Shown here: positions 26,062-32,902 of the stretch, piece by piece
Numbering within the stretch: the stretch's first letter is position 1
Layout of the letters: every line of letters begins with the position of its first letter
NCBI GenBank assembly: GCA_902800905.1
Contig: CADCGC010000001.1
Location: 1 to 64,000 of the forward strand
Length of the DNA: 64,000 nucleotides
Source: an uncultured Erysipelotrichaceae bacterium
Lineage (GTDB): Bacteria > Bacillota_I > Bacilli_A > RFN20 > CAG-826
Direction of reading: 5' to 3'
Notes under the pieces: model-generated
The model's input: only the letters and a program-made list of their open reading frames with translations
Databases searched by the model: none
What the model was told of the DNA's origin: nothing
Translations under genes and position numbers: made by a program

Positions 26062-26088
26062 CTATATTTATATAGTTTAACGACAAAG

Positions 26089-26118
26089 AAAATCGTCAAA
26101 AAAATTGGCGATTTTTTT
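26089..26118 (+). terminator. pgi terminator
   Basis: AAAATCGTC / GGCGATTTT (one G-U pair), 9-base loop, then a T run. Confidence 0.85.
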
Positions 26119-26171
26119 ATTGATTTATATATATCTAAATGATATATTATTATTCGCGTATCTGCAAAAGC

Positions 26172-26247
26172 GGATGCTTAGCTCAGCTGGGAGAGCATCG
26201 CCTTTACACGGCGGAGGTCGGGGGTTCGAGCCCCTCAGCATCCACCA
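26172..26247 (+). tRNA. tRNA-Val (TAC)
   Basis: 76 bases with encoded CCA. Acceptor GGATGCT / AGCATCC, anticodon loop TTTACAC giving TAC. First of five closely spaced tRNA genes; an AT-rich promoter-like stretch lies just upstream. Confidence 0.96.
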
Positions 26248-26266
26248 TTAATACGCAAACGGATTT

Positions 26267-26350
26267 GGAGGGGTAGCGAAGAGGCTAAACGCGGCTGACT
26301 GTAAATCAGCTCCTGAGGGTTCGGCAGTTCGAATCTGCCCCCCTCCACCA
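26267..26350 (+). tRNA. tRNA-Tyr (GTA)
   Basis: 84 bases with a long variable arm and encoded CCA. Acceptor GGAGGGG / CCCCTCC; anticodon GTA in CTGACTGTAAATCAG. Confidence 0.96.
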
Positions 26351-26359
26351 CCGTATTGT

Positions 26360-26435
26360 TGGGGTGTAGCCAAGCGGTAAGGCAACAGACTTTGACTCTG
26401 TCATCTCACTGGTTCGATTCCAGTCACCCCAGCCA
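26360..26435 (+). tRNA. tRNA-Gln (TTG)
   Basis: 76 bases with encoded CCA and discriminator G. Acceptor TGGGGTG / CACCCCA; anticodon TTG in CAGACTTTGACTCTG. Confidence 0.96.
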
Positions 26436-26442
26436 ATTAATT

Positions 26443-26518
26443 GACTCGCTAGCTCAGACGGTAGAGCACTTGACTTTTAATCACGGGGTCCGGAGTTCGA
26501 ATCTCCGGCGAGTCACCA
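26443..26518 (+). tRNA. tRNA-Lys (TTT)
   Basis: 76 bases with encoded CCA. Acceptor GACTCGC / GCGAGTC; anticodon TTT in loop CTTTTAA. The anticodon stem CTTGA / TCACG has one T28-C42 mismatch. Confidence 0.95.
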
Positions 26519-26525
26519 AAAGGAT

Positions 26526-26613
26526 GCCCAGGTGGCGGAACAGGTAGACGCACAAGACTTAAAATCTTGCGGATGTATAATCCGTACCGGTTCGATTCCG
26601 GTCCCGGGCACCA
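26526..26613 (+). tRNA. tRNA-Leu (TAA)
   Basis: 88 bases, class II, with encoded CCA. Anticodon TAA in CAAGACTTAAAATCTTG. The acceptor GCCCAGG / CCCGGGC again has an A5-C68 mismatch, as in tRNA-Leu (GAG). Confidence 0.95.
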
Positions 26614-26624
26614 GATTAGATTTA

Positions 26625-26655
26625 AAGCCTTGATACACAAATCAGGGCTTTTTTC
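26625..26655 (+). terminator. Terminator of the five-tRNA operon
   Basis: AAGCCTTGAT / ATCAGGGCTT (one G-U pair), loop ACACAA, then TTTTC. Confidence 0.88.
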
Positions 26656-26726
26656 TTATAAAAACCTATGTATTTTATACATATCTTATTATTTTTAAAC
26701 TTTTTACAGTTCGCAAAACATATTTT

Positions 26727-26906
26727 TTGTATAGTTTGATTCCTGTCGGGGGCGTACCTCAATAAAAAAGAATTAAGGCACTTACGGGAATCGAACTATG
26801 TTTACGCTATGGTTTTGATACATTTTTAAGGCAATTATTACATTAATGTAAGGCAAACAATTTCAAAGAGCCAGAACAACGACCAGTTCGAATCCCACAG
26901 GGTGCC
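26727..26906. other. Three tRNA 3'-half-like fragments
   Basis: Between the tRNA operon and the methyltransferase gene lie three sequences that look like a T-loop plus 3' acceptor strand without the 5' half: plus strand 26734-26758 (GTTTGATTCCTGT then GGGGGC), minus strand 26796-26777 (GTTCGATTCCCGTAAGTGCC), plus strand 26886-26906 (GTTCGAATCCCACAGG then GTGCC). None has a matching 5' acceptor strand. They look like leftovers of integration at tRNA 3' ends. The stretch 26907-26972 ends in a hairpin with TTTTTGC resembling a tRNA-operon terminator. I see no gene in 26656-26972. Confidence 0.5.
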
Positions 26907-26972
26907 GAAAATGTATCAAAGTAATAAAAAGACTCTATTTTCATTAAAATTAATGATTGAGAGCCTTTTTGC

Positions 26973-28223
26973 TTATTCTTTATCAATGATTTGTTCGATT
27001 TCAGTGCCAAGTTTTTTAATAATCCCACACACCAAAGCGTTGCCCATCATGAAGTAACGCCTTTTTTCTGGCATACCTGAATTTGTCCAGTCATCAGGGA
27101 ATTGATTAATTCTTTCACATTCAATAGGAGTAAGGATTCTAAGCTTATTATCTTTAGGATCCATTATAATGTGAGTGCTTCTATTGGTAGTTCCTTCGGA
27201 AGTGAGCATAGTTCTTGCTGGAAGTGATAATTCATCGTATGGGCTCATTGAACCTTCGGAATACATATACTCGAATCCATTTTTATCTTTTCTTGGAATT
27301 TTCTTGGAGCCGCGAAGATATTCATATTTTTTGCGCTGTGATTCACTTAAGAAGTAGTGGGCGTCAACGCCATCTTTTTCAACTATTTTGCTTAATGTCA
27401 TTGGTTTAACTAATACTGGTTTAGTTTTTACTGTATAAACCTTGTCACCAATCATATAACCGGCATTCTCAAATGTAGCGTGGAATTTATCGGATACGGC
27501 AACCAAATCTTTATATCCCTTTTTAAAGTCATAATCCTTAATGGTTTTTTCTGGGAATTTTTCAATTGGGAATTCTTTTGCAAAAATACCTTTTGAAGAA
27601 ATGATTTCAAGCGGAGATGAGTCCTTCATCATTTCGTAGTATTTTGTTGATTTATGATAGGCAAAAATGAAAAGCCTACGTCTTCTTTGTGGATGACCAT
27701 ACTCAGCGGCGTTAATAATTCTCCACTCCATAGCATAGCCTTGCTCGGATAAACAGCGGAGCATAATGCCAAAATCTCTGCCTCTTTGTTTTGCTGGAGA
27801 TTTAACTAATCTATCAACGTTTTCTAATAAGACAAATGGTGGTTGTTTAGCTTTCAAAATGTCGTTGATTTGCCACCAAAGAACACCTTTCTTTCCTTCG
27901 ATACCATGAGCTTTGCTCAAAGTATGAGCAACTGAATAGTCTTGGCAAGGGAAACCACCTGTCAATAGTGTGTGGTCAGGTATTGTTGCTTTATCGACTT
28001 TAGAAATATCCACGTTGGAATTTTCAGTAGCAGAAGGGAATCTCAAGTTGTAACAATCAAATGCGTGTTGAGATTTTGTTGCTGGCTCCCATTGATTTGC
28101 CCATACAAAAGTAAATGGACCTTTTTCAATGGCGTGGCCGTTTTTATCTATTTTAGTGATGTTATTTAAGCCCACACGGAAGCCTCCAACACCTGCAAAT
28201 AATTCTATAACTGTCTTTTTCAT
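26973..28223 (-). CDS. DNA (cytosine-5)-methyltransferase, M.Sau3AI-like
   Basis: Transfers a methyl group from SAM to C5 of cytosine, probably in GATC judging by its nuclease partner. 416 residues from the ATG at 28223. Motif I is ELFAGVGGFRVGL (7-19), motif IV TGGFPCQDYS with catalytic C93, motif VI LLENVDRLV (ENV at 134-136), motif VIII QRRRR (179-183) and motif X FMMGNALVCGI near the end. A TTG 36 bases upstream is in frame, but homology begins at MKKTVIELFAG. Only weak GGTG precedes the ATG. It is divergent from the nuclease gene. Two GATC sites lie in its own promoter. Confidence 0.92.
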   Translation of the reverse strand: MKKTVIELFAGVGGFRVGLNNITKIDKNGHAIEKGPFTFVWANQWEPATKSQHAFDCYNLRFPSATENSNVDISKVDKATIPDHTLLTGGFPCQDYSVAHTLSKAHGIEGKKGVLWWQINDILKAKQPPFVLLENVDRLVKSPAKQRGRDFGIMLRCLSEQGYAMEWRIINAAEYGHPQRRRRLFIFAYHKSTKYYEMMKDSSPLEIISSKGIFAKEFPIEKFPEKTIKDYDFKKGYKDLVAVSDKFHATFENAGYMIGDKVYTVKTKPVLVKPMTLSKIVEKDGVDAHYFLSESQRKKYEYLRGSKKIPRKDKNGFEYMYSEGSMSPYDELSLPARTMLTSEGTTNRSTHIIMDPKDNKLRILTPIECERINQFPDDWTNSGMPEKRRYFMMGNALVCGIIKKLGTEIEQIIDKE

Positions 28224-28244
28224 ATGTTTTAGTCTACACCATAG

Positions 28245-28273
28245 ATAATACAGGATCAAGGAAAAAATGTAAA
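28245..28273 (-). promoter_or_regulatory. Methyltransferase promoter containing GATC
   Basis: TTTACA (28273-28268), 17-base spacer, TATTAT (28250-28245). One GATC (28254-28257) is inside the spacer and a second (28274-28277) touches the upstream edge of the -35 box, so methylation or binding at these sites could alter transcription. Confidence 0.6.
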
Positions 28274-28336
28274 GATCTAATAAATTCTTTAGATAATTTA
28301 TTTTTCACAATATGCGCGGACGTGCGCTGTTCATTT

Positions 28337-28362
28337 TTATGCATCTTTGTTATAATGCATAA
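28337..28362 (+). promoter_or_regulatory. Extended -10 promoter and inverted repeat before the nuclease gene
   Basis: TGTTATAAT (28348-28356) is a perfect extended -10 box. It is spanned by the inverted repeat TTATGCAT (28337-28344) / ATGCATAA (28355-28362). A start point about 7 bases after the box would fall near the ATG at 28366, giving a leaderless message; no ribosome site is present. Confidence 0.55.
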
Positions 28363-28365
28363 GTT

Positions 28366-29751
28366 ATGAATGATAAGAATAGACATCTTAGTGAGGAAGA
28401 GATTTTAGAGATTACCAAAAAGGCAATGCATAAAACCTTTGGTGATTTTGGTTTAGATGAATCTTACTCAGGAAGAAATAAGGGTGGTTTAGGTGGCTTT
28501 GTTGAAGAACATATTTTTGGATACAAAACTAATAGTGATGACAATCCTGATTTCATTGATGCAGGTATTGAATTAAAAGTAACTCCAATCAAAAAGAACC
28601 AAGATGGTTCCATCTCTTCTAAAGAAAGACTAGTGCTTAATATGATTAACTATAAAGCAGAGGCATTAGCGACTTTCAAAACAAGCTCTTTCTATAAGAA
28701 AAATAGACGATTATTGATTTGGTTCTATTTATATTCATTAGGCGTTCATCCAGCAAATTTTGAAATAACCGACTATGATTTATTTGAGTTTGAAAATTCG
28801 CTTCAATACAAGATTGTTGAAAGAGACTGGAATGTTATTCACAGCAAGATTGCTAGCGGAAAAGCACATGAGATTTCCGAATCAGATACTGAGTTTTTGG
28901 CTGCTTGCACCAAAGGTGCCGATAGTAAAGTTCTAACTGAACAATATAATTCTGATATAAAAGCGAAGCCAAGAGCATATAGTTTCAAACAGTCATTTAT
29001 GACTTATCTCTATAGAAACTTAATTCATAATATCGCTCCATATTCTCCATTAATCTCGGAAGATGAGTGGATGAAGAACCCTCTTGAAGAGATTTATAAG
29101 GAAAAAATGTCCGTTTATCACGGAATGACTCAAAAACAATTGTGCAGAAGATTTGGTGTTAGCTCAAAAGCAAAACAACTTAATTTTATGTTGTGTCAAA
29201 AAATGCTTGGTATCTCAGGACGTAGCAAAGCTACAACTGAAATGGAAGTGGCAGGAATTATCTTTAGAACTATAACTATTGATAAAAACGGCAGGCCAAC
29301 AGAATCTATGCCGTTTAAAGCATTTGAATTTGAAGAACTTATTAACACCCCGTGGGATGAATCAATGATTCGTGATGACTTTGTTGATCTGAAGCTAATG
29401 ATTTTTGTTTTCAAGGAAATTGATGGTGTTATTTCATTCGATAGAATTCATTTCTGGAATGCCCCTAACTCAATAGTGGATGGTGATATTCGAAAGATGC
29501 ACGAAAAATGTGCCGATATGGTAAGAAGAGGAGAAGCGTTCTATTTTGACCATAAAGGCAAAGTTAAAGATAAATTCCCAAAAGAGACAAGAAATTCCAA
29601 TGGTGTATGCCATGTAAGACCTCACGCTAGAGTAGAGGCGGACCATTACGATTTACCAGTACCCGACAAAGCAACAGGAATCACTTCATATACCAAGCAA
29701 AGCTTTTGGTTTAATAAGGATTTTGTTGAGAAAATTTTAAAAATAACGTAA
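28366..29751 (+). CDS. Sau3AI/MutH-like type II restriction endonuclease
   Basis: 461 residues, close to Sau3AI (about 490). The N-terminal domain has the MutH/Sau3AI core: GRNKGGLGGFVEEHIFG (E47), PDFIDAGIELKV with D62, E69 and K71. These form a D...ExK metal site, so cleavage at GATC is inferred. The second half (about 215-461) would correspond to the MutH-like regulatory domain of Sau3AI; its FEFEELINTPWDES segment fits. The gene is divergent from the methyltransferase and 15 bases ahead of the GHKL gene. The lack of a ribosome site and the -10 next to the ATG suggest weak, leaderless translation, which would protect the host during establishment. Confidence 0.88.
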   Translation: MNDKNRHLSEEEILEITKKAMHKTFGDFGLDESYSGRNKGGLGGFVEEHIFGYKTNSDDNPDFIDAGIELKVTPIKKNQDGSISSKERLVLNMINYKAEALATFKTSSFYKKNRRLLIWFYLYSLGVHPANFEITDYDLFEFENSLQYKIVERDWNVIHSKIASGKAHEISESDTEFLAACTKGADSKVLTEQYNSDIKAKPRAYSFKQSFMTYLYRNLIHNIAPYSPLISEDEWMKNPLEEIYKEKMSVYHGMTQKQLCRRFGVSSKAKQLNFMLCQKMLGISGRSKATTEMEVAGIIFRTITIDKNGRPTESMPFKAFEFEELINTPWDESMIRDDFVDLKLMIFVFKEIDGVISFDRIHFWNAPNSIVDGDIRKMHEKCADMVRRGEAFYFDHKGKVKDKFPKETRNSNGVCHVRPHARVEADHYDLPVPDKATGITSYTKQSFWFNKDFVEKILKIT

Positions 29752-29766
29752 AAGAGGAATACACAT

Positions 29767-31692
29767 ATGGGCAATATTAAAGTTGATGTAGAAAGAATAG
29801 TTACTAATCTTGGTAAAAATGTTGGATTTCTTCAGCCGATTTATGAAACGATTGCAAATTCTTTAGAGGCTAACGCTAGTCTCATTGAGATTGAACTATT
29901 TGAAGATGAAACCTTGGATGAGGCTAAACCAGGTTTGATAAATGGGTTTAGTATTACTGATAATGGCGATGGTTTTAACGACTTTAATCTAAATGGGTTT
30001 TTCACATTATGGACAGATAATAAGATTACTCTTGGCTGTAAGGGGAGTGGGCGTTTTACTTGGCTAAGTGTATATAGAACAATCAAAGTTCGCAGTGAAC
30101 TTGCGTACAATAACCAAAATAATGTTAGGGAATTCATTTTTGATAAGAATTTTTCAGAGGATTCTGTTGTTTATTCTTCAGATACAACAATCAAAGAAAA
30201 CAAGACTATCATAGTTTTTTCAGGTCTGATTGAAAAATATAAGAAGCAAAACAAAGATGGGCAAATATTCGCTGATTTGGAGATTATCAAAGAAAACATT
30301 TTGAATTATTTATCAGTGAAATTGTTCCTTTTAAAAAGAGATGGTTTTCATTTTGAGATTGTATTAAAGAATAAAAAGGAGATGTGCACAATTAATTGGG
30401 ATGATGTTCTTAAGTTGGACGAACAATCGTTCCTCATTAAGGGTATCGATGATGTTCCTTATATATTTACTATGTTTTCGCGTTTTATTGATAATGGAAA
30501 AAACAGTAAAAGAATGTATTTTTGTGCAAGTAATAGATGCATAAAGGAAAATGATGACGACGATCTCCATTTTTCGTGTAATTTGCCTAATAATGTTTCT
30601 ATGCAAATGATGGTTTGCTCTGGCTATTTAGATGAAAGAAATGGTGATGATAGGAGCACTTTCGAGGTTTTAGATGGTTTAAAAAGTGCTAATTTACTAA
30701 ATCCAATTACTCTATCGCAAATCAAAAAAGAATCAATTAAGGTTATGAACCAAATCATAATTGATAGGTTCCCAGAAATTATTGAACAAAACAAAGAAGA
30801 AGTTGATAAAGCTATCGCTGAAGTACCGTATTTGTCTAAATATATCAAAGAAAACGAAGATGCTGTTAAATCGTCAAAGTCTTTAATCAAGGAAGCGACT
30901 TCCAAATACGAAAAAGAAAAAGCAAAAGTTAAGACGGAATTTGAAAAAGTACTCTTAGAAAGAAATATTAATCCTTTGCAGTTTAACGAAGCAGTAGCCA
31001 AAATGAGTGATGTCGCCGCAATTGAACTTGGTGAATATATTCTTTACCGCGACAGTGTTATTGATGGCTTAAAAAAAGGAATAGAATTGCCAGAAACAAA
31101 AGAAGATTTTGTACATAATGTAATTATTCCAAAAAATACTTCCTCGGATGGAGGAACCATTTCCGAGAAAAGATTTAATAACATTTGGCTTTTCGATGAT
31201 AAGTTTATGACTTTTTCTTACTGTGCCTCGGATAAAACAATAAAACAAATTGTTGATAGTTTATATCCGGATAAAGATGAAATTTTCCGTGCAAAAAAAC
31301 GTCCTGATATTCTTTTAGCATTTGATAACGACGATTCTCCTAAAAAAAGAAATGCTGTTATGGTTGAGTTGAAAGGCCCGAATGCAGATGAAGACGAAAA
31401 GAACAAATCAATTACAGAGCTTCCAAATCACATCAGCATTATTAGAAAAAATATCGCCTCCATTGATACAATTTATGGGTATATTGTCACAACAATTGAT
31501 GAGTCATTTAAAGAAACTCTTGGCAATCAAGACGCCTATCATCCACTTTTTTCAAAAGATTTGGAAGGAAAGGCATATTATGGATATTTGAAAAATGTTA
31601 ACGCCCATATTTACATTCTCGATTTAAGCGTCGTATTAAGTGATGCAAAATTACGTAATAAGATGTTTATTGATATGATTAAGCAAAAATAA
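29767..31692 (+). CDS. GHKL ATPase with C-terminal PD-(D/E)XK nuclease motif
   Basis: 641 residues. The N-terminal Bergerat-fold ATPase shows PIYETIANSLEANAS (N box, about 23-37), ITDNGDGFND (about 60-69) and GCKGSGRFTW (about 87-96), as in MutL, Hsp90 and MORC. A transducer-like region follows, then a coiled region at about 330-420. Near the C-terminus RPD514-ILLAF, 19 residues after D514, then VE534LK536 reads as a PD-(D/E)XK nuclease site. Such ATPases (paraMORC/MutL-like) are known in restriction operons. GAGGAA lies before the ATG. I infer it works with the Sau3AI-like nuclease, possibly as ATP-driven DNA clamp plus second nuclease. No experimental role is implied by the sequence. Confidence 0.82.
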   Translation: MGNIKVDVERIVTNLGKNVGFLQPIYETIANSLEANASLIEIELFEDETLDEAKPGLINGFSITDNGDGFNDFNLNGFFTLWTDNKITLGCKGSGRFTWLSVYRTIKVRSELAYNNQNNVREFIFDKNFSEDSVVYSSDTTIKENKTIIVFSGLIEKYKKQNKDGQIFADLEIIKENILNYLSVKLFLLKRDGFHFEIVLKNKKEMCTINWDDVLKLDEQSFLIKGIDDVPYIFTMFSRFIDNGKNSKRMYFCASNRCIKENDDDDLHFSCNLPNNVSMQMMVCSGYLDERNGDDRSTFEVLDGLKSANLLNPITLSQIKKESIKVMNQIIIDRFPEIIEQNKEEVDKAIAEVPYLSKYIKENEDAVKSSKSLIKEATSKYEKEKAKVKTEFEKVLLERNINPLQFNEAVAKMSDVAAIELGEYILYRDSVIDGLKKGIELPETKEDFVHNVIIPKNTSSDGGTISEKRFNNIWLFDDKFMTFSYCASDKTIKQIVDSLYPDKDEIFRAKKRPDILLAFDNDDSPKKRNAVMVELKGPNADEDEKNKSITELPNHISIIRKNIASIDTIYGYIVTTIDESFKETLGNQDAYHPLFSKDLEGKAYYGYLKNVNAHIYILDLSVVLSDAKLRNKMFIDMIKQK

Positions 31693-31772
31693 ATTAATAC
31701 AATCTTTCTTTGTTGCTGACAAAACCATTAAAGCCCGGCAGGATTATTGCTAGGAGGAAATAATGGTTAATA

Positions 31773-31943
31773 ATGATGACTAAAGAACACGAGCAATTTT
31801 TATTGAGGTGTGAATTAGCAAAAACAATAGTGGCAATGATTTGGACTAAAGGAATTATCACTGACCAAGAAAGAGATAAAGCAATAAAATATCTAACGAA
31901 AAAGTTCAAAGAAGAAGAAATTACAAAATTTATCAAAAAATAG
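31773..31943 (+). CDS. Small helical protein, unknown
   Basis: 56 residues (starting MMTKEHEQFLLRCELAKT), charged and helical, with the ITDQERDKAIKYLTKKF segment resembling short SHOCT-like proteins often found near recombinases and islands. AGGAGG at 31752-31757 is 15 bases before this ATG but only 5 before another ATG (31763) that opens a six-codon frame MVNNDD ending in TAA. The short frame may be a leader peptide, or the gene may have suffered a one-base frameshift. The stop TAG is the first base triplet of a tRNA-like fragment. Confidence 0.55.
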   Translation: MMTKEHEQFLLRCELAKTIVAMIWTKGIITDQERDKAIKYLTKKFKEEEITKFIKK

Positions 31944-31966
31944 GGTTCGAATCCAGTGGGCTCAAA
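31944..31966 (+). other. tRNA 3'-half-like fragment
   Basis: GGTTCGAATCCAGTGGGCTC resembles a T-loop, T-stem and acceptor 3' strand with no 5' half. It is followed by a hairpin GAGTAAT / ATTACTC (31971-31998) enclosing GTATCAGAATTGT. The layout is like the fragment at 26886. The surrounding gap 31944-32156 holds no other gene. Confidence 0.45.
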
Positions 31967-32021
31967 ATTACAGAGTAATGTATCAGAATTGTATTACTCC
32001 CTCTTGCATTTGAGTCATTTT

Positions 32022-32040
32022 GCATCAATATTGTTGTACT
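32022..32040 (+). repeat. Direct repeat, copy 1
   Basis: ATCAATATTGTTGTACT (32024-32040) is identical over 17 bases to 32833-32849. The two copies bracket the zinc-ribbon gene. Confidence 0.7.
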
Positions 32041-32156
32041 CACAAAAAATTGCTCTAATACGATTATTGGGGCTTTTTAATGCTTTTAATCAAAAGCGTG
32101 ATTAGATAACAACGAATGTCTTAAAATATTTATAAGGAATAATAGGAGGCAAAAAT

Positions 32157-32750
32157 ATGAGTTGGGATACTACCGAAAAACGAATCAAATGTCCTTGTGG
32201 TAAGGGCGAAATAGTTCAGGTGAACAAAGATAACGATTGGGGTCAATACATCGAAGGAACTCCTGTTATTGAATGCCCTGAATGTGCTAAGAAATATAAG
32301 CTCGTATCAAAGACACATATGTCATATAAGCCTGGTCATGGCAGTTGGACCAACTATTACTTAGTCCCAAAGGGACTCAAACCCGATAAAAAATACAAGA
32401 ACTCCTTTGAATATGTGAATGAGTATGAATTGGCCAAAAAGGATTTTGCCGAATACCTGATAGTGGATTATCCAAAGAGTGTTTTGGAAGAAGCTTACGC
32501 AGAACTTTTAAATGCAAGCTCGGTTTCGGCTTTGAGAAGTGCCGCGAGAAGAATTGCAAAGGATAAAAAGAGATACACGGGATCCTGCAAGATAAAGGAA
32601 CTGACCCCATTAGTCAAAAAAGCCATCGATGGATTTGATTCCTATAATGGCAATTGGCAACAAAGGGATGATGAAGAACAGGAAAATATCAAGGCAGAGG
32701 AAGAGTATCTAACCAAGGTTCGCAAGGAAGGACTTTTGCTCGATTTATAG
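32157..32750 (+). CDS. Zinc-ribbon protein of unknown function
   Basis: 197 residues. The N-terminus has CPCG (12-15) and, 26 residues on, CPEC (about 41-44), a four-cysteine zinc ribbon. A basic middle (SKTHMSYKPGHGSWTNYY) and a helical C-terminal half with ALRSAARRIAKDKKRY follow, ending in an acidic helix. AGGAGGC precedes the ATG. It lies in the accessory island between two identical 17-base repeats. DNA or RNA binding is a guess from the ribbon and basic patches. No family recognised. Confidence 0.75.
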   Translation: MSWDTTEKRIKCPCGKGEIVQVNKDNDWGQYIEGTPVIECPECAKKYKLVSKTHMSYKPGHGSWTNYYLVPKGLKPDKKYKNSFEYVNEYELAKKDFAEYLIVDYPKSVLEEAYAELLNASSVSALRSAARRIAKDKKRYTGSCKIKELTPLVKKAIDGFDSYNGNWQQRDDEEQENIKAEEEYLTKVRKEGLLLDL

Positions 32751-32788
32751 TAAAAAACCCATTCGATTCTTCCCATTCCCTTTGAAAT

Positions 32789-32850
32789 GTATCAATGTTG
32801 TAGTGCAACCCTTTGTAAAAATGGCTAAATGTATCAATATTGTTGTACTA
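32789..32850 (+). repeat. Direct repeats, copies 2 (degenerate) and 3
   Basis: AATGTATCAATGTTGTAGTGC (32786-32806) and AATGTATCAATATTGTTGTACT (32828-32849) lie 42 bases apart. The second is identical to copy 1 over 17 bases. The AATGTATCA core also occurs at 26909, 31977 and, inverted, at 26814-26822. Confidence 0.65.
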
Positions 32851-32857
32851 TGACAAC

Positions 32858-32887
32858 TGAAAAATAAACCCTACATTTGTAGGGTTT
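32858..32887 (-). terminator. Terminator of the ABC exporter operon
   Basis: AAACCCTAC / GTAGGGTTT with a 4-base loop, followed on the minus strand by ATTTTTC. Confidence 0.8.
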
Positions 32888-32902
32888 TACTTTGCTCTTT
32901 TA

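Follow-up and report, generated by a model that had tools for sequence, protein, structure and literature searches.

A GHKL ATPase joined to a predicted PD-(D/E)XK nuclease, of the paraMORC3/GHKL-Shedu kind, behind a Sau3AI-type restriction gene

Described proteins with a GHKL ATPase and a nuclease domain

Proteins that join a GHKL ATPase to a nuclease were described in 2008 by Iyer, Abhiman and Aravind as paraMORC3, with a GHKL domain, an S5 domain and a C-terminal restriction-endonuclease (RE) fold domain carrying an E-D-ExK signature, in a sporadically distributed family that is partly linked to restriction-modification (RM) systems and partly stand-alone (PMC2292703). The same authors raised the possibility that, outside RM contexts, some members had been taken over for mismatch repair (PMC2292703). 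In 2025, a GHKL + PD-(D/E)XK protein of the Vibrio cholerae WASA lineage, VcSduA, was assigned to Shedu type I-D and found to block T1-like phages in E. coli, as well as vibriophage X29 in its own host; the substitutions E27A and K557A each abolish phage defence, and infected cultures protected by VcSduA survive at all multiplicities tested (PMC12137116). The type I Shedu protein of E. coli, EcSduA, recognises DNA ends and introduces nicks at a set distance from the end (PMC12904381).

Here we analysed a protein encoded in a stretch of 64,000 nucleotides (the window) from an uncultured Erysipelotrichaceae bacterium, which an initial annotation had read as a GHKL ATPase and a PD-(D/E)XK nuclease in one polypeptide. 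This architecture is real, but it is not new: given the design described for paraMORC3 in 2008 and the anti-phage validation of VcSduA in 2025, the window protein belongs to an already known kind. Compared with the published description of paraMORC3, it has the same succession of GHKL, S5 and C-terminal RE-fold domain with E-D-ExK, the same sporadic distribution, and a family whose members are either RM-linked or stand-alone. It differs in the linkage of its gene to that of a Sau3AI-type enzyme, since the paraMORC3 passages of that paper name no such partner (PMC2292703). Like VcSduA, it is a single protein with a GHKL N-terminus and a PD-(D/E)XK C-terminus, and its catalytic glutamate, E27, has the same residue number, whereas the lysine of the nuclease site is numbered K536 here and K557 in VcSduA. 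Plasmid homologues with E27/K556 and E27/K558 numbering fall in a deep clade of our tree that is separate from the window protein; judged from this numbering, VcSduA is therefore probably a distant cousin of the window protein and not its orthologue.

Domain architecture and conservation

The gene, its upstream signal and the domains of its product are located as follows:

29767..31692, + strand: GHKL ATPase - S5/transducer - helical linker - PD-(D/E)XK nuclease protein (paraMORC3 / Shedu type I-D-like), ATG start, 641 aa
29753..29759 (approximate), + strand: AGAGGAA, Shine-Dalgarno-like, upstream of the GHKL-nuclease ATG (read directly from the sequence)
29767..30336, + strand: Bergerat/GHKL ATPase domain, residues ~1-190, with E27/N31, D65-G69, G93-G95 and T147 (Pfam, motif invariance)
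30337..30708, + strand: S5/transducer-like domain, residues ~191-314, with invariant R257 (VIA-align to MORC3; alignment)
30712..31086, + strand: helical linker, residues ~316-440 (AlphaFold2 secondary structure)
31087..31689, + strand: predicted PD-(D/E)XK nuclease domain, residues ~441-641, with E446...D514...E534-x-K536 (invariance; structural match to Shedu 8ti9)

The structural modelling (AlphaFold2) rests on 17 sequences. In the full-length model (pLDDT 82), a Bergerat fold is followed by an S5/transducer-like domain, by long helices at residues ~316-440 and by an alpha/beta C-terminal domain. The helices correspond to the coiled region that the initial annotation had placed between ATPase and nuclease, while the S5/transducer domain preceding them was absent from its description. 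The N, G1 and G2 boxes, which it had assigned to the first 100 residues, were located there as E27xxxN31, D65xG67xG69 and G93xG95, and together with the motif IV threonine, T147, they complete the hallmarks of the GHKL superfamily. Pfam HATPase_c_3 matches residues 25-133 with an E-value of 7.6e-7, above the curated cut-off.

Residues 5-338 of the N-terminal model align with residues 13-389 of MORC3 (VIA-align; Z 17.9, 282 residues, rmsd 4.1), and the same model also aligns with Hsp90, topoisomerase VI and MORC2 (VIA-align); SMCHD1, topoisomerases and MutL are other structural matches to this fold. In a profile search against PDB sequences, PMS2 and MutL are the first matches. The window protein has GHKL and transducer folds in common with MutL/PMS2 and MORC; MutL's own nuclease is of an unrelated fold (Iyer et al., PMC2292703). 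The order of GHKL and S5/transducer, as seen in the AlphaFold2 model aligned to MORC3, is that of paraMORC3. The protein does not belong to the MORC family proper, because the MORC-specific motif GhXhhpXXRhl is missing: R257 is retained, yet no glycine stands eight residues ahead of it in the window protein or in any of the 26 rows of the family alignment, in a register placed by eye.

Homologues were collected from genome contigs, from 293 relatives, from plasmids and from viral contigs. Full-length homologues occur in many phyla, including Pseudomonadota, Thermodesulfobacteriota, Bacteroidota, Campylobacterota, Verrucomicrobiota, Melainabacteria, Actinomycetota and Bacillota. In the alignment of 26 sequences, whose homologues share 22-43% identity with the window protein, the residues E27, N31, D65, G67, G93, G95, R257, H450, D477, D514, E534 and K536 are invariant (26/26), and E446 and T147 are each present in 25 sequences. 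This conservation of ATPase and nuclease residues is far beyond chance. The near-invariant E446 sits where the upstream glutamate of the nuclease motif would be expected. Fifteen residues after the lysine of ExK most homologues have a glutamine, which resembles the Q motif of RecB-type nucleases; the window protein and its whole clade have a glutamate at this position (residue 551, 31417-31419).

No curated family matches the C-terminus of the window sequence taken singly, be it in NCBIfam, PADLOC, PHROGs or PDB sequences, and the assignment of a nuclease therefore rested on the reading of a motif until structure and conservation were considered. Pfam matches to the C-terminus are sub-threshold (VRR_NUC at 0.066 for the window protein, PDDEXK_9 and HSDR_N for some homologues). 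The residue numbers given initially, D514, E534, L535 and K536, agree with the sequence, and D514, E534 and K536 proved invariant in all 26 aligned sequences. When residues 400-641 are modelled alone (AlphaFold2; pLDDT 81, pTM 0.79), the best structural match is the nuclease domain of Bacillus cereus Shedu, 8ti9 (VIA-align; Z 11.0, 148 residues, rmsd 3.6 A), followed by Shedu 8ti8 (Z 9.8), N.BspD6I (9.5), McrBC (7.1) and FokI (7.0). The top matches are PD-(D/E)XK nucleases, in agreement with the fold that had been proposed. Since N.BspD6I scores close behind, the match to the Shedu fold is not exclusive, and with Foldseek alone nothing matched the C-terminal domain at E <= 0.001. In the full-length model D514 lies just before strand 515-520 and E534-K536 at the end of strand 528-535, which is the expected place for the active site. 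With E446, D514, E534 and K536 in a predicted RE fold, the protein has the extra C-terminal globular domain with E-D-ExK that is found in paraMORC3.

The likeness to Shedu SduA (B. cereus 8ti8/8ti9; also 8ps4) is one of nuclease fold, whereas the similarity of sequence profiles is weak. The SduA_C profile (PF14082 / DUF4263) gave no HMMER match in the window genome or in the 26 family members, and a profile-profile alignment (hhalign) of the domain with four SduA_C proteins was weak (44% probability), with E534-x-K536 lined up with the E-x-K of Shedu. The source of this comparison was an SduA_C search of the phylum, which found Shedu-type proteins without GHKL fusion. The N-terminal regions of the SduA proteins in 8ti8/8ti9 and 8ps4 are not known to be GHKL ATPases. 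A nuclease nature of the C-terminus is supported by conservation and by the predicted fold. Both the ATPase and the nuclease signatures of the window protein are intact and strongly conserved, the folds being those of predicted models.

Genomic context and proposed function

The family is sporadic, with full-length matches in about 5 of 392 genomes of the phylum. Weaker matches in the phylum (E 1e-8 to 1e-3, mostly over profile positions 20-90 only) were left out of the family; in all likelihood they represent common GHKL proteins, MutL and GyrB for example. The window genome has a second copy (C1:156333-158237, - strand; L020:8316-10313), which is 28% identical to the first and falls in a different deep clade; relatives 85-88% identical to this second copy are present in G102 and G006, the latter interrupted by TGA. 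The closest homologue found, 43% identical, is in another family of the same order (G185). On the maximum-likelihood tree the label "RM-linked" undergoes at least five changes. The neighbours of homologues include type I systems, type IIG-like, MmeI/Eco57I/TaqI-type and N6-methylase systems, Sau3AI-type systems and AAA_14/DUF4143 genes, and some homologues lie on plasmids or in prophage contigs with no RM neighbour seen.

In three genomes, GHKL-nuclease genes of two very different clades follow, after 10-24 bp, an AAA_14/DUF4143 ATPase gene that is 81-94% identical among them (L027:8412-11626, L029:7621-10913, L030:8034-11325), as if this gene were the marker of a shared insertion slot, or a partner. 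The identification of a 426-aa gene ahead of the homologues in G013, G102 and G006 as pgi, by its length, was rejected; it encodes an AAA_14/DUF4143 ATPase. On a Vibrio fluvialis plasmid (L021:6586-9980), a gene annotated as a Shedu immune nuclease directly precedes a GHKL-nuclease homologue, and both end a type I RM operon.

In the window, two further genes precede that of the GHKL nuclease:

26973..28223, - strand: C5-cytosine DNA methyltransferase (Pfam DNA_methylase 4.1e-62; TIGR00675; PADLOC MTase_II 3.3e-170)
28366..29751, + strand: Sau3AI-family type II restriction endonuclease, 461 aa, MutH-like domain, PDFIDAGIELK motif (NCBIfam NF040973 E 4.6e-127; Pfam MutH)

These look like a complete Sau3AI-type RM system. 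The methyltransferase gene, which probably starts at the ATG at 28223 and not at the TTG at 28259, is divergent from the restriction gene, and the GHKL-nuclease gene is on the same strand as the latter. As the gap between the restriction and GHKL-nuclease genes is of only 15 bp, and AGAGGAA precedes the ATG, the two are probably co-transcribed in one operon. The arrangement differs from that of standard Sau3AI-type systems, of which the GHKL nuclease is not a regular part: in a sample of 30 such loci from the phylum, the methyltransferase is present every time, but a GHKL gene lies within 1.5 kb in one locus only, that of the window. This count led us to reject the GHKL nuclease as an obligatory part of the Sau3AI system. 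A genome of the same family has the RM pair (90% and 92.5% identical) without the GHKL gene, and relatives have different genes (AAA_14/DUF4143 ATPase; SF1 helicase-DUF2726) in the slot that follows a closely similar restriction gene. In G185, the homologue and another Sau3AI-type gene lie at the end of a contig and point towards each other. Because 29 of the 30 loci do not have it nearby, the GHKL nuclease is an independent cargo gene, an add-on stacked in the same defence island. The initial claim that it is self-contained and distinct from the restriction enzyme is supported by this count, and by the homologues that have no RM neighbour on plasmids and in prophage contigs.

We consider it quite probable that the window protein defends against phages as a single-gene effector of the paraMORC3 / GHKL-Shedu (type I-D) kind, acting as an ATP-gated nuclease independently of its RM neighbour. 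By analogy with MutL, MORC and Hsp90, the binding of ATP would close the N-terminal GHKL domains into a dimer, the transducer and the helical linker would carry this movement to the C-terminal PD-(D/E)XK domains, and these would then cut DNA that meets the trigger. Gating by ATP is suggested by VcSduA, where defence is lost both in the ATPase variant E27A and in the nuclease variant K557A. Judging from Shedu, cutting is probably triggered by a structural feature of the DNA, for example a free end or a replication intermediate, rather than by a sequence, and Shedu and VcSduA together suggest that the outcome would be ATP-controlled cutting of phage DNA without killing of the host. A nuclease that is unspecific and triggered by infection could instead destroy the host chromosome and act as an abortive-infection effector, and Abi genes are present near some homologues (Abi_alpha in G185, Abi_2 in G128). 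The protection of cultures by VcSduA at all multiplicities is, however, consistent with direct restriction of the phage (PMC12137116), and we judge an abortive mechanism to be quite unlikely. Even less probable, indeed very unlikely, is that the protein is an enzyme of DNA repair or chromosome structure, nicking or looping DNA in the manner of MutL or MORC, and not an anti-phage gene. The ATPase half does resemble MutL/PMS2 and MORC, and recruitment for mismatch repair was put forward by Iyer et al. for some non-RM versions, but such a role agrees poorly with the sporadic distribution and the mobile contexts (plasmids, prophages, variable islands), and VcSduA, a protein of the same organisation, is anti-phage (PMC12137116).

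A closer tie to the neighbouring genes can also be envisaged, in which the GHKL nuclease is a helper of the Sau3AI-type system: the restriction enzyme would cut unmodified DNA, and at the resulting GATC-ended breaks an ATP-gated, end-sensing nuclease would degrade the invader, the two acting in series. The short gap with its ribosome-binding-like site, the sensing of DNA ends by EcSduA (PMC12904381) and the recurrence of RM linkage across the family fit such a scheme, and the G185 homologue, which is also beside a Sau3AI-type enzyme, leaves room for a functional tie. That arrangement is nevertheless convergent and not an operon, and the neighbourhood counts argue against cooperation in series being obligatory, with no such gene within 1.5 kb in 29 of 30 loci and other genes in the slot in relatives. 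We therefore regard this scheme as unlikely. If the operon partner does supply the DNA ends that are sensed, a sequence-specific cut would be converted to destruction of the invader, and the locus would allow cooperation of restriction with an end-directed nuclease to be tested simply. With the window protein, the GHKL-Shedu defence proteins gain a branch that is well supported and deeply divergent, located behind a classical type II restriction enzyme; these proteins repeatedly associate with unrelated restriction systems, yet are able to stand alone.

The variable interval after the tRNA cluster

The RM genes and the GHKL-nuclease gene of the window fill a variable interval (26062-32902), bounded on one side by pgi with a cluster of five tRNA genes (26172-26613) and on the other by an ABC-transporter pair. 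Its counterpart in congeners holds alcohol/aldehyde-dehydrogenase and Rex-like genes (G002, L136) or an iron hydrogenase (G007, L138), and little or nothing in G015 (L137) and G001 (L140). Within the genus, the interval after the tRNA cluster thus serves as a site of variable insertion.

The GHKL gene is separated from the ABC transporters by, among others, an open reading frame of 197 aa (32157-32750, + strand), for which no family match over threshold was obtained, and which was not found in the same interval of the congeners examined; its product has a zinc-ribbon-like start (CPCG...CPEC). In G071 (L132:110-7031), the slot behind a closely related Sau3AI-type gene is occupied by co-oriented genes for an SF1 helicase with DUF2726, a MazG-like protein and a Schlafen-group-3 helicase.
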